Shown here: positions 3,601-60,896 of the stretch, piece by piece
Position numbering within the stretch: the stretch's first letter is position 1
Layout: each line of letters starts with the position of its first letter
Source: Sialis fuliginosa
Taxonomy: Eukaryota; Arthropoda; Insecta; Megaloptera; Sialidae
DNA: 64,000 bases
Assembly: GCA_961205875.1 (NCBI GenBank)
Contig: OY540817.1
Coordinates: forward strand, 4,189,001 to 4,253,000
Direction: 5' to 3'
Position numbers and translations under genes: made by a program
The notes under the pieces: generated by a model
The model's database searches: none
Seen by the model: the letters and a program-made list of their open reading frames with translations, nothing else
What the model was told of the DNA's origin: nothing

Positions 3601-6600
3601 AGCGCTTCAAAAAGAACTCAAAGAAGCTTTCAGATTGTACGATAAAGAAGGTAAGGTTGCTTCTAAATCCGAATTATAACATCCCGGGAAAAAATTTCAG
3701 ATCTGAAGTGATCTCGGTTGATCTTCATTTTGGAACAAATCAGATCTTTTTGGATCTTTGTAGATCGTTGTAGGTCTTTGCAGATAGTTGTAGGTCTCTG
3801 TAGATCTTTGTAGATCGTGATCTTTGCAGATCGTTGTAGATCGTTGTAGGTCTTTGCAAATAGTTGTAGATATTTGCAGATCGTTATAGATCTTTGCAGA
3901 TCGTGATCTTAATAGATCGTTGTAGATCTTTGCAGATAGTTGTAGGTCGTTGTAGGTCGTTGCAGATCTTTGTAGATCGTTGCAAATCTTTGCAGATCGT
4001 GATCTTTATAGATCGTTGTAGATCTTTGCAGATCGTTGTAAATCTTTACAGATCGTTGTTGATCTTTGTAGATCGTTGTACATCTTTGCAGATCGTCGTA
4101 GATCGTGAGATTGAAACGTATTGTTTGTATTTTAATCAATTAAAAAAAAAATGTGTATTTGTTATTTTAACAATACGGGCCTTAAATATCACTTAATACG
4201 TGTCTGGACTTTTTTTTCATTTTATTAAATTTAATAATAATATCTTATGTTTCTATGCTGTATTAACAGTAAATATTGAATTTTTCTCTGTTTCACTACT
4301 TATGGTATTCATTATAGAAAATCGTAAATATCTCGACTCCTGTGCTAGATAGAGGGTTGTTTTGCCCCCCACACCCCTAGTATCCCGAAGTATTTTTCCC
4401 GCTTAATCGAATGAGACCAATTACAACCCTTCATCTGTGACAGAGGGTGAGTTGTGAATTTATTTATTAATTTAATACACGGGCCTCAAATATCATTCAA
4501 TACGTTTCTGTACAATTTTTTTTTAATTGATTAAATTATAAACAAGGTTTCTATATAGTATATGTGTATTTGTTATTTAAGGTAGACAAAAGTTTATTTA
4601 TGAATAAGTACATATTATTATGTATCTATATTGTATGAATATCGCAACATAGCTCTCGCCAACACAGTATTTTCACTTTCATTCGTATATATAAGCCAAG
4701 TCGAATCAGTTAGTAATAAGGTAATACAATACATATATGGTGGTTCTCTTCTCCAGGATTGCTCTTCGAACCCAGTTACTGCGGGAAGTCAAGCTGTGTG
4801 TGTGTACAAAAACATAAATAATCAAATCCCCGATCTACGCAGATCTGTGTTGATCTGCGTTGATATGTTCCAAAATGGAGATCAAAACAGATCTGTAAAA
4901 ATGCAGATCTGATTTTGATCACTTTAGATCTGAAATTTTTTCCCGGGATTATATAGATTTGTTTTATCGAATTACTTTTTAATAGTGACAAGTGTTGGTA
5001 TAATTTAAATCGCTCTTAAGCCGGTACTAGTTCTACAAATTAGGGGCCCGTGAATAAAATAGATTTTTTTCAAAATTTACAAAAGCTTCAATTTAGCATA
5101 TGTAATTTTAAAATTATATTTGAGATATATTCAAATTAGATAACTATATAAAATACGGTATGTTATTTCCTCCCCTCTCAACTATGCATCTAAAAAATAT
5201 TAAGATATATTATGTACTAAGTAAATGATTATAATTATAATAATAGTTTTGTATTTTAAATTTTAGGTAATGGATATATACCAACTTCAAGTCTGAGAGA
5301 GATCCTGATGGCCTTGGACGACCAGTTAACTCCCGACCAATTAAATGAAATGATAGCAGAAATCGATACAGATGAATCGGGCACAGTAGATTTTGACGGT
5401 TTGTACAATAATAATATTAGATAATAAATTACATTTCTTACAAAAAGAAAGAAAAATCTTCAATAAAATAACATTTGTGTTTTCCATTACATGTAGAATT
5501 AGAAAATAATAATAACTAAAAGCTCCCTCATTTACTCAATATATTTTGATTAATTATTAATTAATATTAAACATTGATAATACTTATTATAATAAATAAA
5601 TAAAAATAAATAATAGTTTCGCAAGTTATTTTAAAGTATTTCTCAACTATAGCTGGTCCCGCGCGGCTTCACTCGCGTGGACTACGAAATTATTGTTTTG
5701 GATTAAAAAAAAAATATAGTTGAATTAAGTACAAACACGATTTGTTATTATTGTAATAAAAACCATACAACACTTAAATTACCTACCTAACAATAACGAA
5801 TCAGAAGAAAAAGTAAAAATAATTTTTGTACTGTTTAAAAAAAATTAATTATTGAAAACAAAATAACCATTGACAATCAAAAGAATACCGGCTGAGATCA
5901 TCCTTCTGCCCTGCGTCTACTCGGTACGCCACCTCCTTCCCGCATAATATGTTCCCGTATGTAATTTTTGATATTTTCTAAACTATACGACCAAATTGGA
6001 TGGTGTAAAGCGCAAATTATATCTTCATTAAGTACTTATGACGATGAAATAATTTATTTCGATAAGGATTAATGTTTTGCAGGTCATAAGTCCACGTAAA
6101 CAGAACCCAAATATTTTAAATTTTCTTTGTAACATAAAAGCAGTAATTGTGGCTTAAATACAAAAGTTAGATATATGTTGTCGCGGACTTTATTGTAGAT
6201 TTTTTGATTCTACATAGTTCTTTAATACTTTATTTTGTTCAGTATTGAACGGTTTAGGCAGCGTGCCGACGGCAAAATTTTTTCCGACTTGATTTACAAT
6301 TATCGTCACTGCTTAGTTGTTATGTTACCTAACGTAACAAAATATATCCTATAACCTGGCCAGAGAACGTAACCGATGTAAACTGACTTATTTTCTCTTA
6401 TGCATCTACTCATCGCTCTCTCAATGATGTGGCATATCTCATCTTGAAAACATGTATTTCAAAACGTGTCGGCGTCCATCCAATTCACTAGCTCACTAGA
6501 GATGTTCCACTTCAAAAACATACCCCGGGTAGATTTTAATTAGTAAGACCATAAAAACAAAATGTAAATCTTTACAAAGAACTTTGATAGCAAGAGAGCG

Positions 6601-25888: not shown

Positions 25889-25936
25889 AATAACATAAAA
25901 CTTAAAAACTAAATCTAATCACAATAAAATAATGTC

Positions 25937-25980
25937 ACTCGACACGTGTTTCGACTTTACAATAGCATTCATCAGGAGTT
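25937..25980 (-). ncRNA. Decayed hammerhead-ribozyme-like motif
   Basis: On the minus strand it has CTGATGA, GAAAC, ACGTGTC and a 4-bp stem I (ACTC with GAGT). The segment between CTGATGA and GAAAC no longer forms a good stem II. The upstream context matches the 50-kb copies (ACAATAAAA.AATGTCACTCG). Confidence 0.5.
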
Positions 25981-26036
25981 TAATATTTCCAGACTGTTTT
26001 CCAATAGTAAATTTTATTAAATATTTCATGATAATT

Positions 26037-28177: not shown

Positions 28178-28201
28178 GACACTACACGTGTTTTCATCAG
28201 G
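28178..28201 (-). ncRNA. Hammerhead relic lacking stem II
   Basis: The minus strand reads CCTGATGA directly fused to AAACACGTGTAGTGTC, with stem II deleted. The upstream context (ACCACAATAAAAACGATGT) matches the same repeat family. It cannot be an active ribozyme. Confidence 0.45.
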
Positions 28202-41360: not shown

Positions 41361-42665
41361 TTGAAGTGAAACTTCTTTAGCAGGCTAGTGAATTGGAATG
41401 ACCTCGACTTGTTTTAAAATACAGATTTTCAAGATGAGAATGTGCATATACGTGAGAGAGCGATGAGTAAATGTATAAGAAAAAGCTGGATGAATAGCGC
41501 ATGCGTACAAGTCACTTTACATCGGTTATGCGTGAGATAGCGATGATTATATATATAAGAGAAAGATGGATGAATAGCGCATGCGTACAAGTCACTTTAC
41601 ATCGGTTATGCGTGAGATAGCGATGATTATATATATAAGAGAAAGATGGATGAATAACGCATGCGTACAAGTCACTTTACATCGGTTATGCGTGAGATAG
41701 CGATGATTATATATATAAGAGAAAGATGGATGAATAACGCATGCGTACAAGTCACTTTACATCGGTTATGCGTGAGATAGCGATGATTATATATATAAGA
41801 GAAAGATGGATGAATAGCGCATGCGTACAAGTCACTTTACATCGGTTATGCGTGAGATAGCGATGATTATATATATAAGAGAAAGATGGATGAATAGCGC
41901 ATGCGTACAAGTCACTTTACATCGGTTATGCGTGAGATAGCGATGATTATATATATAAGAGAAAGATGGATGAATAACGCATGCGTACAAGTCACTTTAC
42001 ATCGGTTATGCGTGAGATAGCGATGATTATATATATAAGAGAAAGATGGATGAATAGCGCATGCGTACAAGTCACTTTACATCGGTTATGCGTGAGATAG
42101 CGATGATTATATATATAAGAGAAAGATGGATGAATAACGCATGCGTACAAGTCACTTTACATCGGTTATGCGTGAGATAGCGATGATTATATATATAAGA
42201 GAAAGATGGATGAATAGCGCATGCGTACAAGTCACTTTACATCGGTTATGCGTGAGATAGCGATGATTATATATATAAGAGAAAGATGGATGAATAACGC
42301 ATGCGTACAAGTCACTTTACATCGGTTATGCGTGAGATAGCGATGATTATATATATAAGAGAAAGATGGATGAATAGCGCATGCGTACAAGTCACTTTAC
42401 GTCGGTTATGCGTGAGATAGCGATGATTATATATATAAGAGAAAGATGGATGAATAGCGCATGCGTACAAGTCACTTTACGTCGGTTATGCGTGAGATAG
42501 CGATGATTAGATGGATGAATGCGGACAAAATAATTTAAGTCGGTGTCAAGCTAGGTGTTTTATATACGTATTATGCGTCAAAGTTATACGTTTGATTATT
42601 AATTTAATACGTTTAGTTTTATTTATTTAATTCGCATGGTTAATGAAAACAAAATAAGTTTTACT
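41361..42665 (+). repeat. Dispersed repeat that has expanded into an 80-bp satellite array
   Basis: The flanks match the single-monomer copy at 26037 (and its continuation after 27643). Between them lies the tandem array entered separately. Confidence 0.85.
41441..42520 (+). repeat. 80-bp minisatellite, ~13.5 units
   Basis: Exact 80-bp period; GAAAGATGGATGAAT recurs at 41561, 41641, 41721 and so on to 42441. Units are nearly identical and contain TGCGTGAGATAGCGATGATT, an AT run, and GCATGCGTACAAGTCACTTT. The main variant is ATAGCGC or ATAACGC. The first unit (near 41481) is the most diverged. Confidence 0.97.
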
Positions 42666-48326: not shown

Positions 48327-50039
48327 AATATTAGTATATTAATATAAAACCCAACACATATAAGTACTTTAGTATATATACATATAGAAGTTATTTTTCA
48401 TGTTGACATTACATTTCATTTGAACCCTTGCGAAGCGGGGAGTTTAATCCGATTAATTTTATTTTGGTCTCTACTCACTTCATTTCTTCCAGCTTTTGTA
48501 TAGTGTTAACTTGATGTGGGTTTCTATAGAGAAGGCCATGCTAATGGTGTGCCACCAACTTTTTGTAGTTCTTTTTGTATAGGCAGATATATCTCAATGA
48601 AGTTAAAGAGAGAGAAATGTTGTAAATAATTAAATAACGTAATGTGGCTGTACAGAAATAAATGGCATTAGTATAATTAAAAAAAGGCTACCACGGGAAT
48701 TTCTTATAACAGACAAAAATATAAAATTTTACTCTTCTATGATTTGTCGTATATGAGTTACAGCGTGTAGTTGTAGTTTGTTTATGCAGTTGTATAAATG
48801 AAAAGTGCAGTTATAAAAGCTAATTTGTGTATATATACACACACTGCTTGTCACAATTAGTGGGACACTTTTTCAATGTAACACAGTTTTGTTAAAACAT
48901 ATCATATTAATATGAAAATTCAGAAAATTCATTAATGTGTTGTTGTTTCAAAGCTCAAAGAGTAACAGCTTTGTACGTGCTTTGATAGCGGGTGTACAAC
49001 TCTTGGGGGGGGGGGGGGGGGGAAATGGAAAGTGGCAATTTAAAGTATTGATACAAAAAGTTTAAGAACTGTTTATTCCAAGATAATGATAAAATTCACA
49101 TTTTTATACATAAAACTTATTTGGACCCTAAAGGTAATAAAAAATTTTTTATATCAATATATAATTCTATTTACCACCTGTTATCATTCCCTAAATTTAG
49201 GTCATCAGAAATATAGGGAAATATGAAAAAACATTTTTAAATCTTCAAGGGTTGTTAGAAATAATCACAATAAATATAAATTTCAATAAAATCCAGTAAT
49301 TTTCAACCACTTTTCTACCCTTCAGTATTCAACCCCCTGTGTATAACAATTAATTCGAACAACGTAGGTAAAGATAAATTTTTGAAATTTACAAAATGGG
49401 TAGTAAACTATGTAGACAACAGATCCATATGTTAAAAATCTAAAATAAATTGTAAGGGTAGGCATCAACCTTTAAATACTATACCGTCCCCAATATTAGG
49501 GTAGAAGATTCAATTCAAGTGTGATTCTATAAAAAATCAATGAAAGTTCTTATTTGAAGATTTTTGTGAAAATTGTGTGCACCAAAATTCACCCCTACGG
49601 ATGTAGCTACTCTAAATTTAAAAAAAATATACACTTTTAGTAAAACATCGTATCTAGAAATTTAGCGGAATTTTTTTATCATCCTTTCAAAAAATAAAAG
49701 ACCCACATTTGATCTTTCTTCACTGGTAAAATTAAAACAATACACTATCAGAGACAACCCTTAAACTCTTATTTCTTAAAATTAAATAAATTTTATTTCA
49801 ATTTATATACAGTAGAACTTCTATAACTTCTAAGCTACGGGACCAAAAATTCTCGGAATTAGAACTTACAGGGTACCCCTTCTATCACAATACCGATCTA
49901 ATGAACGAAAAAAATTATACAATTTTTTTTTTAATTTTCTCTTGATGAAATGACCCATATAGCTGTCAACGTTGAATCAGAAGTTTACTTTATCCTTCAA
50001 CTACTGGAAAAACGAAGAAACTGTGGTTTCTTAGTCTCT
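48327..50039. other. No recognised gene
   Basis: AT-rich DNA with a poly-G run (49004-49021) and a Tc1-like end motif (TAGTGGGACACTTTTTC near 48861) whose partner I could not find. No coding signal. Confidence 0.5.
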
Positions 50040-50079
50040 TAAACTAAAAATATACACCTTAACCACAATAAAACAATGT

Positions 50080-50124
50080 CACTCGACACGTGTTTCGACT
50101 TCTCAAGAAGTCCTCATCAGGAGC
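50080..50124 (-). ncRNA. Hammerhead-ribozyme-like motif, intact core
   Basis: On the minus strand: stem I GCTC, core CTGATGA, one extra base, stem II GACTTC with GAAGTC closed by TTGA, core GAAA, a very short stem III (AC with GT, ACGT loop), cleavage triplet GTC, then GAGT completing stem I. This is a type I fold. All core bases I can check are conserved. Confidence 0.7.
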
Positions 50125-50231
50125 CTAACAGTTCCAGACTGATACAGTCTTGGTCAAACCTTATATGTACACTAAAAGAGCTTTATAGTATAATAAGGTT
50201 TGACCAAGACTGTATCAATCTGGAACGGTTA

Positions 50232-50276
50232 GGCTCCTGATGAGGACTTCTTGTGAAGTCAAAACACGTGTCGAGT
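50232..50276 (+). ncRNA. Hammerhead-like motif with a G12-to-A change
   Basis: Plus-strand mirror of the previous motif. It reads GAAGTCAAAAC where the other has GAAGTCGAAAC, so the conserved core G before AAA is lost. Probably inactive. Confidence 0.6.
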
Positions 50277-50987
50277 GACATTGTTTTATTGTGGTTAAGG
50301 TGTATATTTTTAGTTTATCCATCACGATATGAAATATGAGTATCAGGGATGCTTTCATGAGTATTCTAGATTTTTAGAAAGAGTAAAGACGCTCTAGTAC
50401 GCAGGTCTTTGAAAAATTGAAAAAACACGTGTATTTTAAATAGGAAAATCACCCCCCTCTGGTAATGGCTATTTTATAAGATAGAGGGCTGAAACTTTTT
50501 CTACAATATTTTTGAATTATTTGGAGCTAATTTGGGGGGCGGCCCGGTCAAAATTCATCCTAACCCCATATAAGGACCACCCTAATATACATAGATGAAT
50601 GTATAAGTATATACATATATTGTATATGTATATATACAAACACAGCTATATACATATAATCTGATGTAGACAAACAAAACCGTTTTGAGTAAACATGTTC
50701 AATGAACTTAATTAATAATTGGTGTTTGTCCTAGAATCTAGAAGTCTAGAGAATCATCATCACAATGTACACTACATTGACAAGTGAATTTGATGCTAGT
50801 CAAATAATCTATGCGATGAGGAACTTGACAATATTAAGTTACTACAATATACATATATACGTATTGTACAATGTACATTAATCAGTAGTAAAGTTACTCT
50901 GTCTTGAAACGGAAATCTGTTTGCTCCGTTGTCAATTTCCACTCTCTTTCCTTTTTTATACTCATGTATATGAAATATACATCTCTA

Positions 50988-55430: not shown

Positions 55431-56457
55431 AAAAATGATTTGTTTATCCGTTACGCTGATTAAAATGGCTGAAAACACAAGCTGTAATAACTAATAAAGT
55501 TGAACGTTTTTTAAGTTGATATCCCTGGAAAATAAACATTGTGTAGTACAGAACATTAACTGAAAATAAGGACCTGATATTTTCAATTGTTTTTGTTTAA
55601 TTAAATTATTAATAATGGTATCATGCTTGTTTATGATTCACAATACAAATTTTTGTAAAACCTTTATTTTTGTAAAACTGTTTGTATGTGTTTCCAAAGA
55701 CTTATATAATCGATTGTCGCCATAAAAAAGTAAAATTTACCAATATGGCAAATAGTGGCATTGAAATCTTATTGTCGAGTCTTTTTTATTATAAACGAAT
55801 ACAGTTGTTTCATAGAACCAGCAACATTAAAAAAATAATAGCCAAAAACCTGCTCCGAACAATTATTTATCTATTAGTGAAAGCCGCATAAAAATCGGTT
55901 CAGTAGTTTTTTAATTATTTTATTGTATATTACACACTTCACAATTTTTATGAAAATTGATTGTTTATACAATTAATTAATTAACTCTACCTAAATAAAA
56001 AAAGTTTATTTTTGTATCTTTTACCGCTTATCTCGAAAAATATGATGTGTAAAACGTAAAATGTAATAGCAAAAAATAATATATTAATATTTAATTGTTA
56101 AAATGTATAAAATAATATCCAAATCCAATATAAATTGTAGATACATATTAGATTTAAAATATACATAAGTAAATAACTATAATAAATATAAGAAATTAGG
56201 TTACAAAAGCAAAATTTGTAATAATAAATCATTATTTGAAATGGACGTATATTTATTGTTTTTATTTAAAATGTTATAACTGCAAGTGTAAGCTCCGCCC
56301 TAGAAAAAGATAACCGATGATGTTTGTCTTTAAAGAAATCTGTTGTAAGCGACTATGGCCTTTAGGGTGCCAGACGAGTTCTGCAGGTGACTGTACATGG
56401 ATAAAAGACAGAAATAAATGTTTTTAGTAAAAATTGTAAAGAATATTACTATCTAAT

Positions 56458-56516
56458 CAAATACAAATCCCCTAACCATAAAAATTGTAAGAGTTTAGAC
56501 TTACACGTGTTTCAAT
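56458..56516 (+). mobile_element. Left half of the 60.2-kb hammerhead element
   Basis: Identical or nearly so to 60199-60270 (TACAAATCCCCTAACCAT to CAATAGCAATGCTATC). It then stops abruptly inside ribozyme stem II and continues as GGAATTCCGGCCGGAA repeats (to about 56600), which may be the end of another element. Confidence 0.75.
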
Positions 56517-57009
56517 AGCAATGCTATCGGAATTCCGGCCGGAAATCACAATTTTATTCAAGTTCCGGCCGGAATTTACGGATTTTCCGGAATTTTTAAA
56601 TTTCATTACTGCTTTCTACTAAGAAATTCATAAATAATATACATTATCTTTGTTTAAAAAATCAAACATAAATATAAAAACATTTTATTAGCAAAAATTT
56701 TAACGGAAATAAGCATTTTATAACACAAATGCAGTTTTTTAACATTTTGTGCAGCAAAAGTATGATTGTAATTATAACATTAATTGACCTTAAAAAAATA
56801 AAAATTAAAATTTTATGATAATATATTAACAAAAATGCCATTATATTACCGAGATTGAACTGTTCAATTATACAGGATGAGTCATATCAGGAAAAAAACT
56901 TGAACAGTTGATCGAGAAAAATATTTCAAGAAAAAAAGTTCATATAAACATGTGTGCGGAAATTCTTCGCGATGGAGATATTTTGTCTAAAATTAGTTTT
57001 TATTTAATA

Positions 57010-59915: not shown

Positions 59916-60006
59916 TATTTAAATGAAATTAATTAAGGGGGAATACCACTGTGCTATGATTTAAAAAAATACATATTTAATTAATTTTAAATTTATTTAA
60001 ATGTTC

Positions 60007-60179
60007 ACGATTAGTTAATCAGTTGTTTTCAAACCATGATTAAACTTAATATCAATTTGTAAATGAACAATTCACTAAATATAATAATTTTTTAGCTTAT
60101 AAAATTTATCATAACCGTGATTGTTTTTTAGAATTGACGTAGGAAATAATAGTTTTTAAACAACTGATTAACTAATCGT
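60007..60179. repeat. Short inverted-repeat element
   Basis: ACGATTAGTTAATCAGTTG... (22 bp, 60007-60028) is repeated exactly in inverse at 60158-60179. Interior is AT-rich. Confidence 0.75.
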
Positions 60180-60239
60180 TAGTTAGGTAAGAAGGTATAT
60201 CAAATACAAATCCCCTAACCATAAAAATTGTAAGAGTTT

Positions 60240-60285
60240 AGACTTACACGTGTTTCAATAGCAATGCTATCATCATCAGAGTCTT
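60240..60285 (-). ncRNA. Hammerhead ribozyme motif, tandem copy 1
   Basis: Minus strand, 5' to 3': stem I AGACT; core CTGATGA; one extra U; stem II GATAGC with GCTATT (loop ATT); GAAA; minimal stem III AC/GT around ACGT; triplet GTA; AGTCT closing stem I. All core positions fit the consensus. An extra base after A9 is known from a viroid hammerhead. Confidence 0.72.
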
Positions 60286-60294
60286 AAAGACACT

Positions 60295-60340
60295 AGACTT
60301 ACACGTGTTTCAATAGCAATGCTATCATCATCAGAGTCTT
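60295..60340 (-). ncRNA. Hammerhead ribozyme motif, tandem copy 2
   Basis: Same sequence and fold as copy 1, 55 bp away. The palindromic ACACGTGT of stem III would let two copies pair with each other, the usual way that hammerheads with very short stem III act. Confidence 0.72.
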
Positions 60341-60896
60341 AAAGACACTTATATAATATATCTTACAATTTTTATGGTTAGGGGATTTGTATTTGATAAG
60401 TCATAACCATAGTTTTTGTCTGTTGTTTGTTATAAGAAGGTATATATTAGTTTATCAAAAAATATAATTTTACCTACTGCATCTTCGTCAATTTTTAATA
60501 TTTTGACTTAACATTTTTGTATACTTTAAGAAATATTTTTTTAAATCAATTTTTTTATCCATTCCTTCTTCAACATAAATTAAAATAACAGGGATAGATA
60601 TTAACTTATTGATTCGTAAACGATTCCGTAAGAAATGGGAAACTATAAAGAAAACAAAGAAAAAGATAATAAAGAAAATCAATAATTATGAGAAGGAAAC
60701 GAAAAACAAATTCCCTTTACAAATAGGTTGTCAACATTCTGAATTATAAATACACAAGGCTTTATTTCAGGCCAATATCATTATTTAATGCATTAATTAA
60801 GTCACAATACCTATTTATGGTAGTTCGATTTTATTTTTCGTTACTAAAATAAATAATTTGATCACAAAAATAAAATATATTAAGTAAAATATCGGT

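Follow-up and report, generated by a model that had tools for sequence, protein, structure and literature searches.

The feature found at 60.2 kb of the window, a 64,000-nucleotide stretch of Sialis fuliginosa DNA, is probably a small non-autonomous insertion derived from the pLTR end of a Penelope-like element (PLE), with two minimal variant type I hammerhead ribozymes inside. Its order is that of a partial inverted pLTR-like arm with a 34-nt tail, two head-to-tail hammerheads, and then a pLTR-like 3′ end, and no ORF was seen within it. The tandem hammerhead motifs between inverted arms described in the original prediction were confirmed as a real observation, and the overall interpretation given to them there, which combined hammerheads, a PLE, dimer action and a retrozyme, was partly supported. 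The features on which this reading is based are collected in Table 1, where family A refers to the 60.2-kb element and its copy, and family B to a second hammerhead family in the same window, which is AT-rich (GC 0.232–0.353 in 2-kb bins).

Table 1. Hammerhead-related and insertion-related features, in positions of the window
Feature	Position	Strand	Basis or remark
Decayed family-B hammerhead, stem II damaged	25935..25981	-	Rfam Hammerhead_1 19.8 bits, E 0.019
Relic, CTGATGA fused directly to AAACACGTGT, without stem II	28184..28200	-	3′ sequence similar by eye
Family-B tail-like extension, 44 nt	49996..50039	-	
Family-B hammerhead, one arm of inverted repeat	50081..50124	-	Descriptor match; Rfam Hammerhead_1 17.7 bits, E 0.12
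Family-B hammerhead, other arm; AAAA for GAAA	50233..50276	+	
Second family-A copy	56456..56528	-	73 nt identical, 3′ end kept, 5′ end lost inside stem II
Putative target-site duplication, left copy, TAAGAAGGTATAT	60188..60200	.	13-bp exact direct repeat
Inverted arm; 3′ end of direct (minus-sense) pLTR-like unit	60198..60235	.	38 nt, 100% complementary to 60361-60398
Hammerhead copy 2	60240..60284	-	Descriptor match at 60279; R1 model
Hammerhead copy 2, predicted cut	between 60245 and 60244	-	
Putative 55-nt RNA freed by the two predicted cuts	60245..60299	-	Read from sequence
Hammerhead copy 1 (the 5′ one on the minus strand), spanning both strands of stem I	60295..60339	-	Descriptor match at 60334; R1 model
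Hammerhead copy 1, predicted cut	between 60300 and 60299	-	
Inverted arm; partial inverted pLTR-like unit (plus-sense)	60361..60398	.	38 nt
Tail beyond inverted arm, 34 nt	60399..60432	+	
Putative target-site duplication, right copy	60433..60445	.	13-bp exact direct repeat

The two identical minus-strand motifs, reported at first as lying 55 bp apart, were recovered by TRF as a 55-nt unit present in 2.0 copies with 100% matches at 60239–60349. Each unit reads AGACU-CUGAUGA-U-GAUAGC-AUU-GCUAUU-GAAA-CACGUG-UA-AGUCU on the minus strand, and all the parts previously listed (CTGATGA, a 6-bp stem II, GAAA, the GTA triplet and a 5-bp stem I) are present in each. Stem II consists of 6 pairs, one of them G.U, stem I of 5 pairs, and stem III of 2 pairs closed by an ACGU tetraloop, CACGUG being palindromic, and the triplet is GUA. 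Missing from the earlier description were this palindromic stem III and an unpaired extra U after CUGAUGA, which can alternatively be read as a U.U mismatch with a bulged G. Both copies show the CUGANGA, GAAA and UH elements and the three stems, open at stem I, of a type I hammerhead. They depart from the canonical type I form, in which stem II sits directly on the core with no insertion, as applied in the filter of PMC3088659. The 60.2-kb ribozymes were thus classed as variants because of the extra U before the G.U pair or, in the other reading, the U.U mismatch and bulged G. Family B likewise carries one extra nucleotide at the base of stem II (GGACUUC versus GAAGUC). According to PMC3088659, U10.1-U11.1 is the best tolerated mispair, although an extra nucleotide or mispair beside the core would at first be rejected by the filter. 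Moreover, the axolotl HHR_Amex2, with U.U at the base of stem II, cleaves, reaching 22% in an hour (PMC7229834). The U.U mismatch therefore has active precedents; for an extra nucleotide beside the core, no precedent was found in the literature examined.

Several counts bear on the hammerhead origin of the motif. In the window, 6 matches to the simple pattern CTGATGA...GAAA were counted versus 1.28 expected, and a descriptor (stem I of at least 3 pairs, CTGATGA, stem II of at least 3 pairs with a bulge of at most 1 nt per side, GAAA, stem III of at least 2 pairs, UH), which was composed post hoc with the motif already known and which missed it in a first version lacking the stem II bulge, matched three sites, namely both 60.2-kb copies and 50120 on the minus strand. 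Six matches were obtained in 1500 dinucleotide shuffles, all with a stem II shorter than the 6 pairs observed. The family-B hammerhead on the plus strand was missed by this descriptor because AAAA replaces GAAA. The string GAAACACGTGT, with at most one mismatch, was found 8 times across the window (0.94 expected), and seven of these occurrences lie in a hammerhead context or its remains, at 25.9, 28.2, 50.09, 50.26 and 56.5 kb and twice at 60.2–60.3 kb, the eighth, at 50422, being a short string only.

A further cross-check came from a covariance model, R1, built solely from the motifs at 50.09, 50.26 and 25.9 kb. Searched against the whole window, it matched 60.2-kb copy 2 at 60234–60290 with 27.3 bits (E 3e-6, the E-values of this model being rough). 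Copy 1, which was probably missing from the whole-window listing because of its overlap with copy 2, was matched at 60285–60344 with 24.2 bits when 60285–60398 was searched alone, with the stem I register shifted and a 4-nt insertion. This match across families, obtained from other loci of the window, supports the hammerhead origin that had been proposed, as judged from sequence, and given this match and the comparison of the descriptor with shuffles, a chance motif is unlikely. In addition, 6 of 13 pairs differ on both sides between families A and B, as many as were reached in 1 of 500 shuffles, and 96.3% of cells are paired in the alignment of the two families versus 25.9–39.6% with the partners slid, counts that compare one family-A row with three family-B rows and two stem-III-only fragments; the alignment behind them was fitted to the model, and 5 of its 6 rows are distinct.

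The standard models gave a different outcome. The original prediction had named the lack of a hammerhead model hit above threshold as grounds for rejecting it, and in fact no Rfam hammerhead was reported at the gathering cut-off in the whole window, nor at E ≤ 10 on 59950–60650 (701 bases). This cut-off (34 for the type I model, Hammerhead_1) is a library threshold and not a biological definition, and since the relatives at 25.9 and 50.1 kb also score below it, the Rfam type I model is a poor test of this minimal class.

Viral contigs were also scanned, and the hammerhead core pattern was found at 5 loci, one of them (L001) hammerhead-like; neither the string of family A nor the form of family B was found in these scans. 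The L001 motif, at 4220–4265 of its contig, has a 9-bp stem I and GAAACACGTGT, with G at position 17 and without a clear stem II. It scored 19.2 bits (E 6.4e-4) with the R1 model, Rfam reports no hammerhead there, and it overlaps an 87-aa ORF on the opposite strand.

The predicted folding of the tandem is consistent in part with the dimer action proposed for it. In a two-unit RNA, the palindromes of both copies are predicted to pair as a shared 8-bp stem III with a probability of about 0.9; within the 125-nt core, mutual pairing of both ACACGUGU stretches has a probability of 0.86–0.92, and both stem IIs form at 0.68–0.92. Stem I is outcompeted (probability 0.06–0.13 for the double form, 0.0 for a single copy), and the full double hammerhead, at –23.9 kcal/mol, lies 3.3 kcal/mol above the minimum-energy fold of –27.2 kcal/mol. 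The support for dimer action comes from predicted folding only, in which stem I mispairs. The stability of the 125-nt core is ordinary (z –1.42, 17 of 200 shuffles as stable), and the whole 201 nt is clearly more stable than shuffles (z –12.16) because of the inverted arms. The stem III found here, with its 2 pairs and palindromic ACGU tetraloop, is close to the axolotl type, which performs best as a dimer.

The surroundings of the tandem point to a Penelope-type insertion. The two arms (60198–60398), separated by 125 nt, form a perfect inverted repeat as had been stated, of 38 nt instead of the 37 bp first given. The element is wider than originally delimited: the insertion probably spans 60201–60432, about 232 bp between the putative duplications, with the 34-nt tail on the inverted arm. 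One copy of the 13-bp direct repeat directly adjoins the outer end of an arm, the other follows immediately on the 34-nt extension, and a repeat of that length was obtained in 8 of 20000 random placements. Among the matches listed, further 13-bp direct repeats with a spacing of 150–350 bp occur at 22.07, 34.91, 36.32, 36.53, 47.96 and 57.77 kb, and a scan for 13-mers at this spacing was dominated by tandem arrays; therefore, it is the placement of the repeat, not its length, that carries the argument for a duplication. Only one full family-A copy is present in the 64-kb window, where no empty target site was seen. The optional extension of 30–40 bp on one arm that characterizes PLEs corresponds to the 34 nt between arm end and direct repeat, and their short target-site duplication to the 13-bp repeat. 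The 38-nt arms of family A and the 125-nt arms of family B are putative pLTRs in inverted arrangement. Moreover, the tail stretch UAACCAUA is able to pair with UAUGGUUA of the arm over 8 bp, which 25 of 5000 shuffled tails do as well. The shortened copy at 56.5 kb is as in 5′ truncation, and its constant 3′ end, together with that of the 25.9-kb match, is as expected of target-primed reverse transcription. The link to Penelope-like elements made by the original prediction is thereby supported by the 13-bp repeat, the tail, the inverted pLTR-like arms and the constant 3′ end. Directly next to the insertion, at 60007–60179, lies another hairpin element, whose 35-nt arms are 89% complementary; among the matches listed no other copy of it was found in the window at E ≤ 0.001.

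Family B is composed of two 125-nt inverted arms (50040–50164 and 50193–50317) that are 97% complementary, with a hammerhead in each. The 25.9-kb match ends at most 1 nt from the family-B 3′ boundary (among the matches listed). The candidate 7-bp duplication of family B, TTTATCC at 49989–49995 and 50314–50320, is weak, being equalled in 1098 of 20000 random placements, and another 7-bp repeat lies near it. The similarity between the tails of families A and B was matched by 30 of 2000 shuffles and is only suggestive; the untailed family-B flank showed no similarity to the tail (1959 of 2000 shuffles as good). UGUGGUU and AACCACA stand at like places in family B, a 7-bp pairing without significance by itself (equalled by 729 of 5000 shuffled tails). 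Folded together, arm and tail outdo 298 of 300 shuffles in family A and 190 of 300 in family B. Compared by sequence, UAUGG/CCAUA in family A and UGUGG/CCACA in family B look compensatory. TATA-like stretches lie between the arms in both families, TATATAAG at 60346–60360 and ACTATAAAG at 50181–50190, both on the minus strand; a Penelope pLTR with a TATA box readable both ways is described in PMC3846280.

Repeats of other kinds occur in the same window. An 80-bp satellite occupies 41447–42509 in 13.3 copies with 98% matches, and, among the matches listed, 53 nt of its unit match the sequence upstream of the 25.9-kb hammerhead with 87–91% identity, and 41362–41469 (78%) and 6400–6518 (74%) match a stretch neighbouring that upstream region. 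A degenerate tandem array with a unit of about 20 bp, CAGATCGTTGTAGATCTTTG, is found at 3741–4104.

The presence of mariner transposase domains at 31–33 kb lends some interest to a reading of the 60.2-kb feature as a Tc1/mariner-type MITE, with 38-bp terminal inverted repeats flanked by TA and a hammerhead-like tandem either captured or arisen by chance. A 121-aa mariner frame there has 689 relatives, of which the 120 listed reach up to 85% identity and include bee, ant, spider and kissing bug sequences at 63–69%; mariners move between species. The perfect 38-bp arms, these transposase remnants and flanks readable as TA-TCAAATAC...GTATTTGA-TA agree with a MITE. However, one copy of the 13-bp repeat stands at the end of its arm and the other 34 nt beyond the opposite arm, at 56.5 kb the second arm is missing and AA instead of TA precedes TCAAATAC, and in the two copies examined both terminal repeats with a TA duplication were not found throughout. 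A second hammerhead family of similar anatomy in the window also speaks against it, and chance poorly explains the core in view of the descriptor shuffles and the R1 match. A MITE is therefore very improbable, and a PLE insertion, judging from the duplication, the one-sided tail and the 3′-constant copy at 56.5 kb, fits the anatomy better.

A small metazoan retrozyme, in which the units would be monomers of a circular RNA reverse-transcribed to tandem DNA, had also been put forward. The identical tandem units with type I hammerheads, and a weak stem III that dimers would aid as in axolotl (PMC7229834), are what such an element would show, but the unit, at 55 nt, falls outside the 150–450 bp of a metazoan retrozyme tandem and far below the RNAs of about 170–400 nt of animal retrozymes in the same source, and it consists of the ribozyme and nothing else, whereas the inverted arms and the tail are PLE traits. 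The circular-RNA and retrozyme part of the original prediction thus stays conjectural, and a retrozyme origin is improbable. There is a slim chance that a double cut releases a circle of 55 nt, purely ribozyme, around which a PLE enzyme would reverse-transcribe to give tandem DNA; such a circle, if true, would be smaller than animal retrozymes in the papers seen (RNAs of about 170–400 nt in PMC7229834). More serious, yet still on the unlikely side, is that the element is PLE-derived and dead, its ribozymes without cleavage and the insertion inert. The weak base of stem II, the extra nucleotide, the stem I mispaired in the minimum-energy structure and the decayed relatives at 25.9 and 28.2 kb are consistent with such a relic. 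Against it, the units are identical and the arms perfect, so that the insertion is probably young, and the core and the two variable stems persist despite sequences that differ from those of family B.

For the preferred reading, a non-autonomous PLE insertion, the following course may be proposed. The minus-strand transcript would fold with the 38-bp arms closed, bringing both ribozymes together, the CACGUG palindromes of the two copies would pair into one shared 8-bp stem III, and the double hammerhead would cut after GUA at one or both sites. Reverse transcriptase and endonuclease from an autonomous PLE elsewhere would act in trans, the helper enzyme binding the tail region, nicking AT-rich DNA, priming at the cut target and copying the RNA. 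A search of six frames of 20–30 kb and 45–64 kb gave no Pfam family at E ≤ 0.1; thus, no coding PLE (telomerase-like RT, GIY-YIG endonuclease) was seen in these regions. In the Anolis PLE (PMC11167929), two sites of reverse-transcription start delimit the tail, starts falling in an AC-rich stem-loop, and the ribozyme cuts only with protein, cutting being dispensable for insertion in vitro; therefore, the cut may here be a by-product or a late step.

The plain reading of the 60.2-kb element is that of a compact form of a known Penelope-type system. According to PMC7761336, tandem minimal type I hammerheads, possibly acting as dimers, are found in PLEs, and those described by Cervera & de la Pena (2014) and by Lunse, Weinberg & Breaker (2017), as related in PMC7761336 and PMC6155905, share with the present ones the type I core, the weak stem III, the tandem arrangement, the PLE-like surroundings and the proposed dimer action. 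They differ from the present element, where two ribozymes lie at 55-nt spacing, no ORF was seen and an extra nucleotide stands beside the core. The rotifer Penelope of Adineta vaga (PMC3846280) has inverted pLTRs with an optional tail of about 31 bp on one of them, duplications of 8–10 bp and solo pLTR insertions, features that recur here in the arms, tail and short duplication; in contrast, no ORF was seen in the present insertion, its inverted arm of 38 nt is much shorter, and hammerheads are mentioned 0 times in the main text of that paper. Animal non-LTR retrozymes (PMC7229834) are likewise non-coding and carry tandem type I hammerheads, those of axolotl being better as dimers, one of them with U.U at the base of stem II; their circles have been demonstrated, whereas the 55-nt RNA proposed here is a prediction from sequence. 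Two tandem copies of the newt satellite hammerhead similarly share an elongated helix III (PMC6155905), in a unit of about 330 bp (PMC7229834), unlike that of 55 nt.

Minimal PLE hammerheads with a proposed dimer action have thus already been published, and it is the compactness here, two ribozymes at 55-nt spacing with no ORF seen, that is unusual. So tight a hammerhead tandem appeared in no title or abstract found, a comparison outside which both primary PLE-hammerhead papers stand. Hammerheads of this minimal class can escape the Rfam models, which passed over the 60.2-kb motif and placed two relatives below the cut-off. What hammerheads do in Penelope-like elements is still called a mystery in PMC7761336, and an insertion with little beyond two ribozymes, a tail and short arms would be a natural minimal substrate for learning which of these parts, ribozyme, tail or inverted arm, the PLE enzyme needs.
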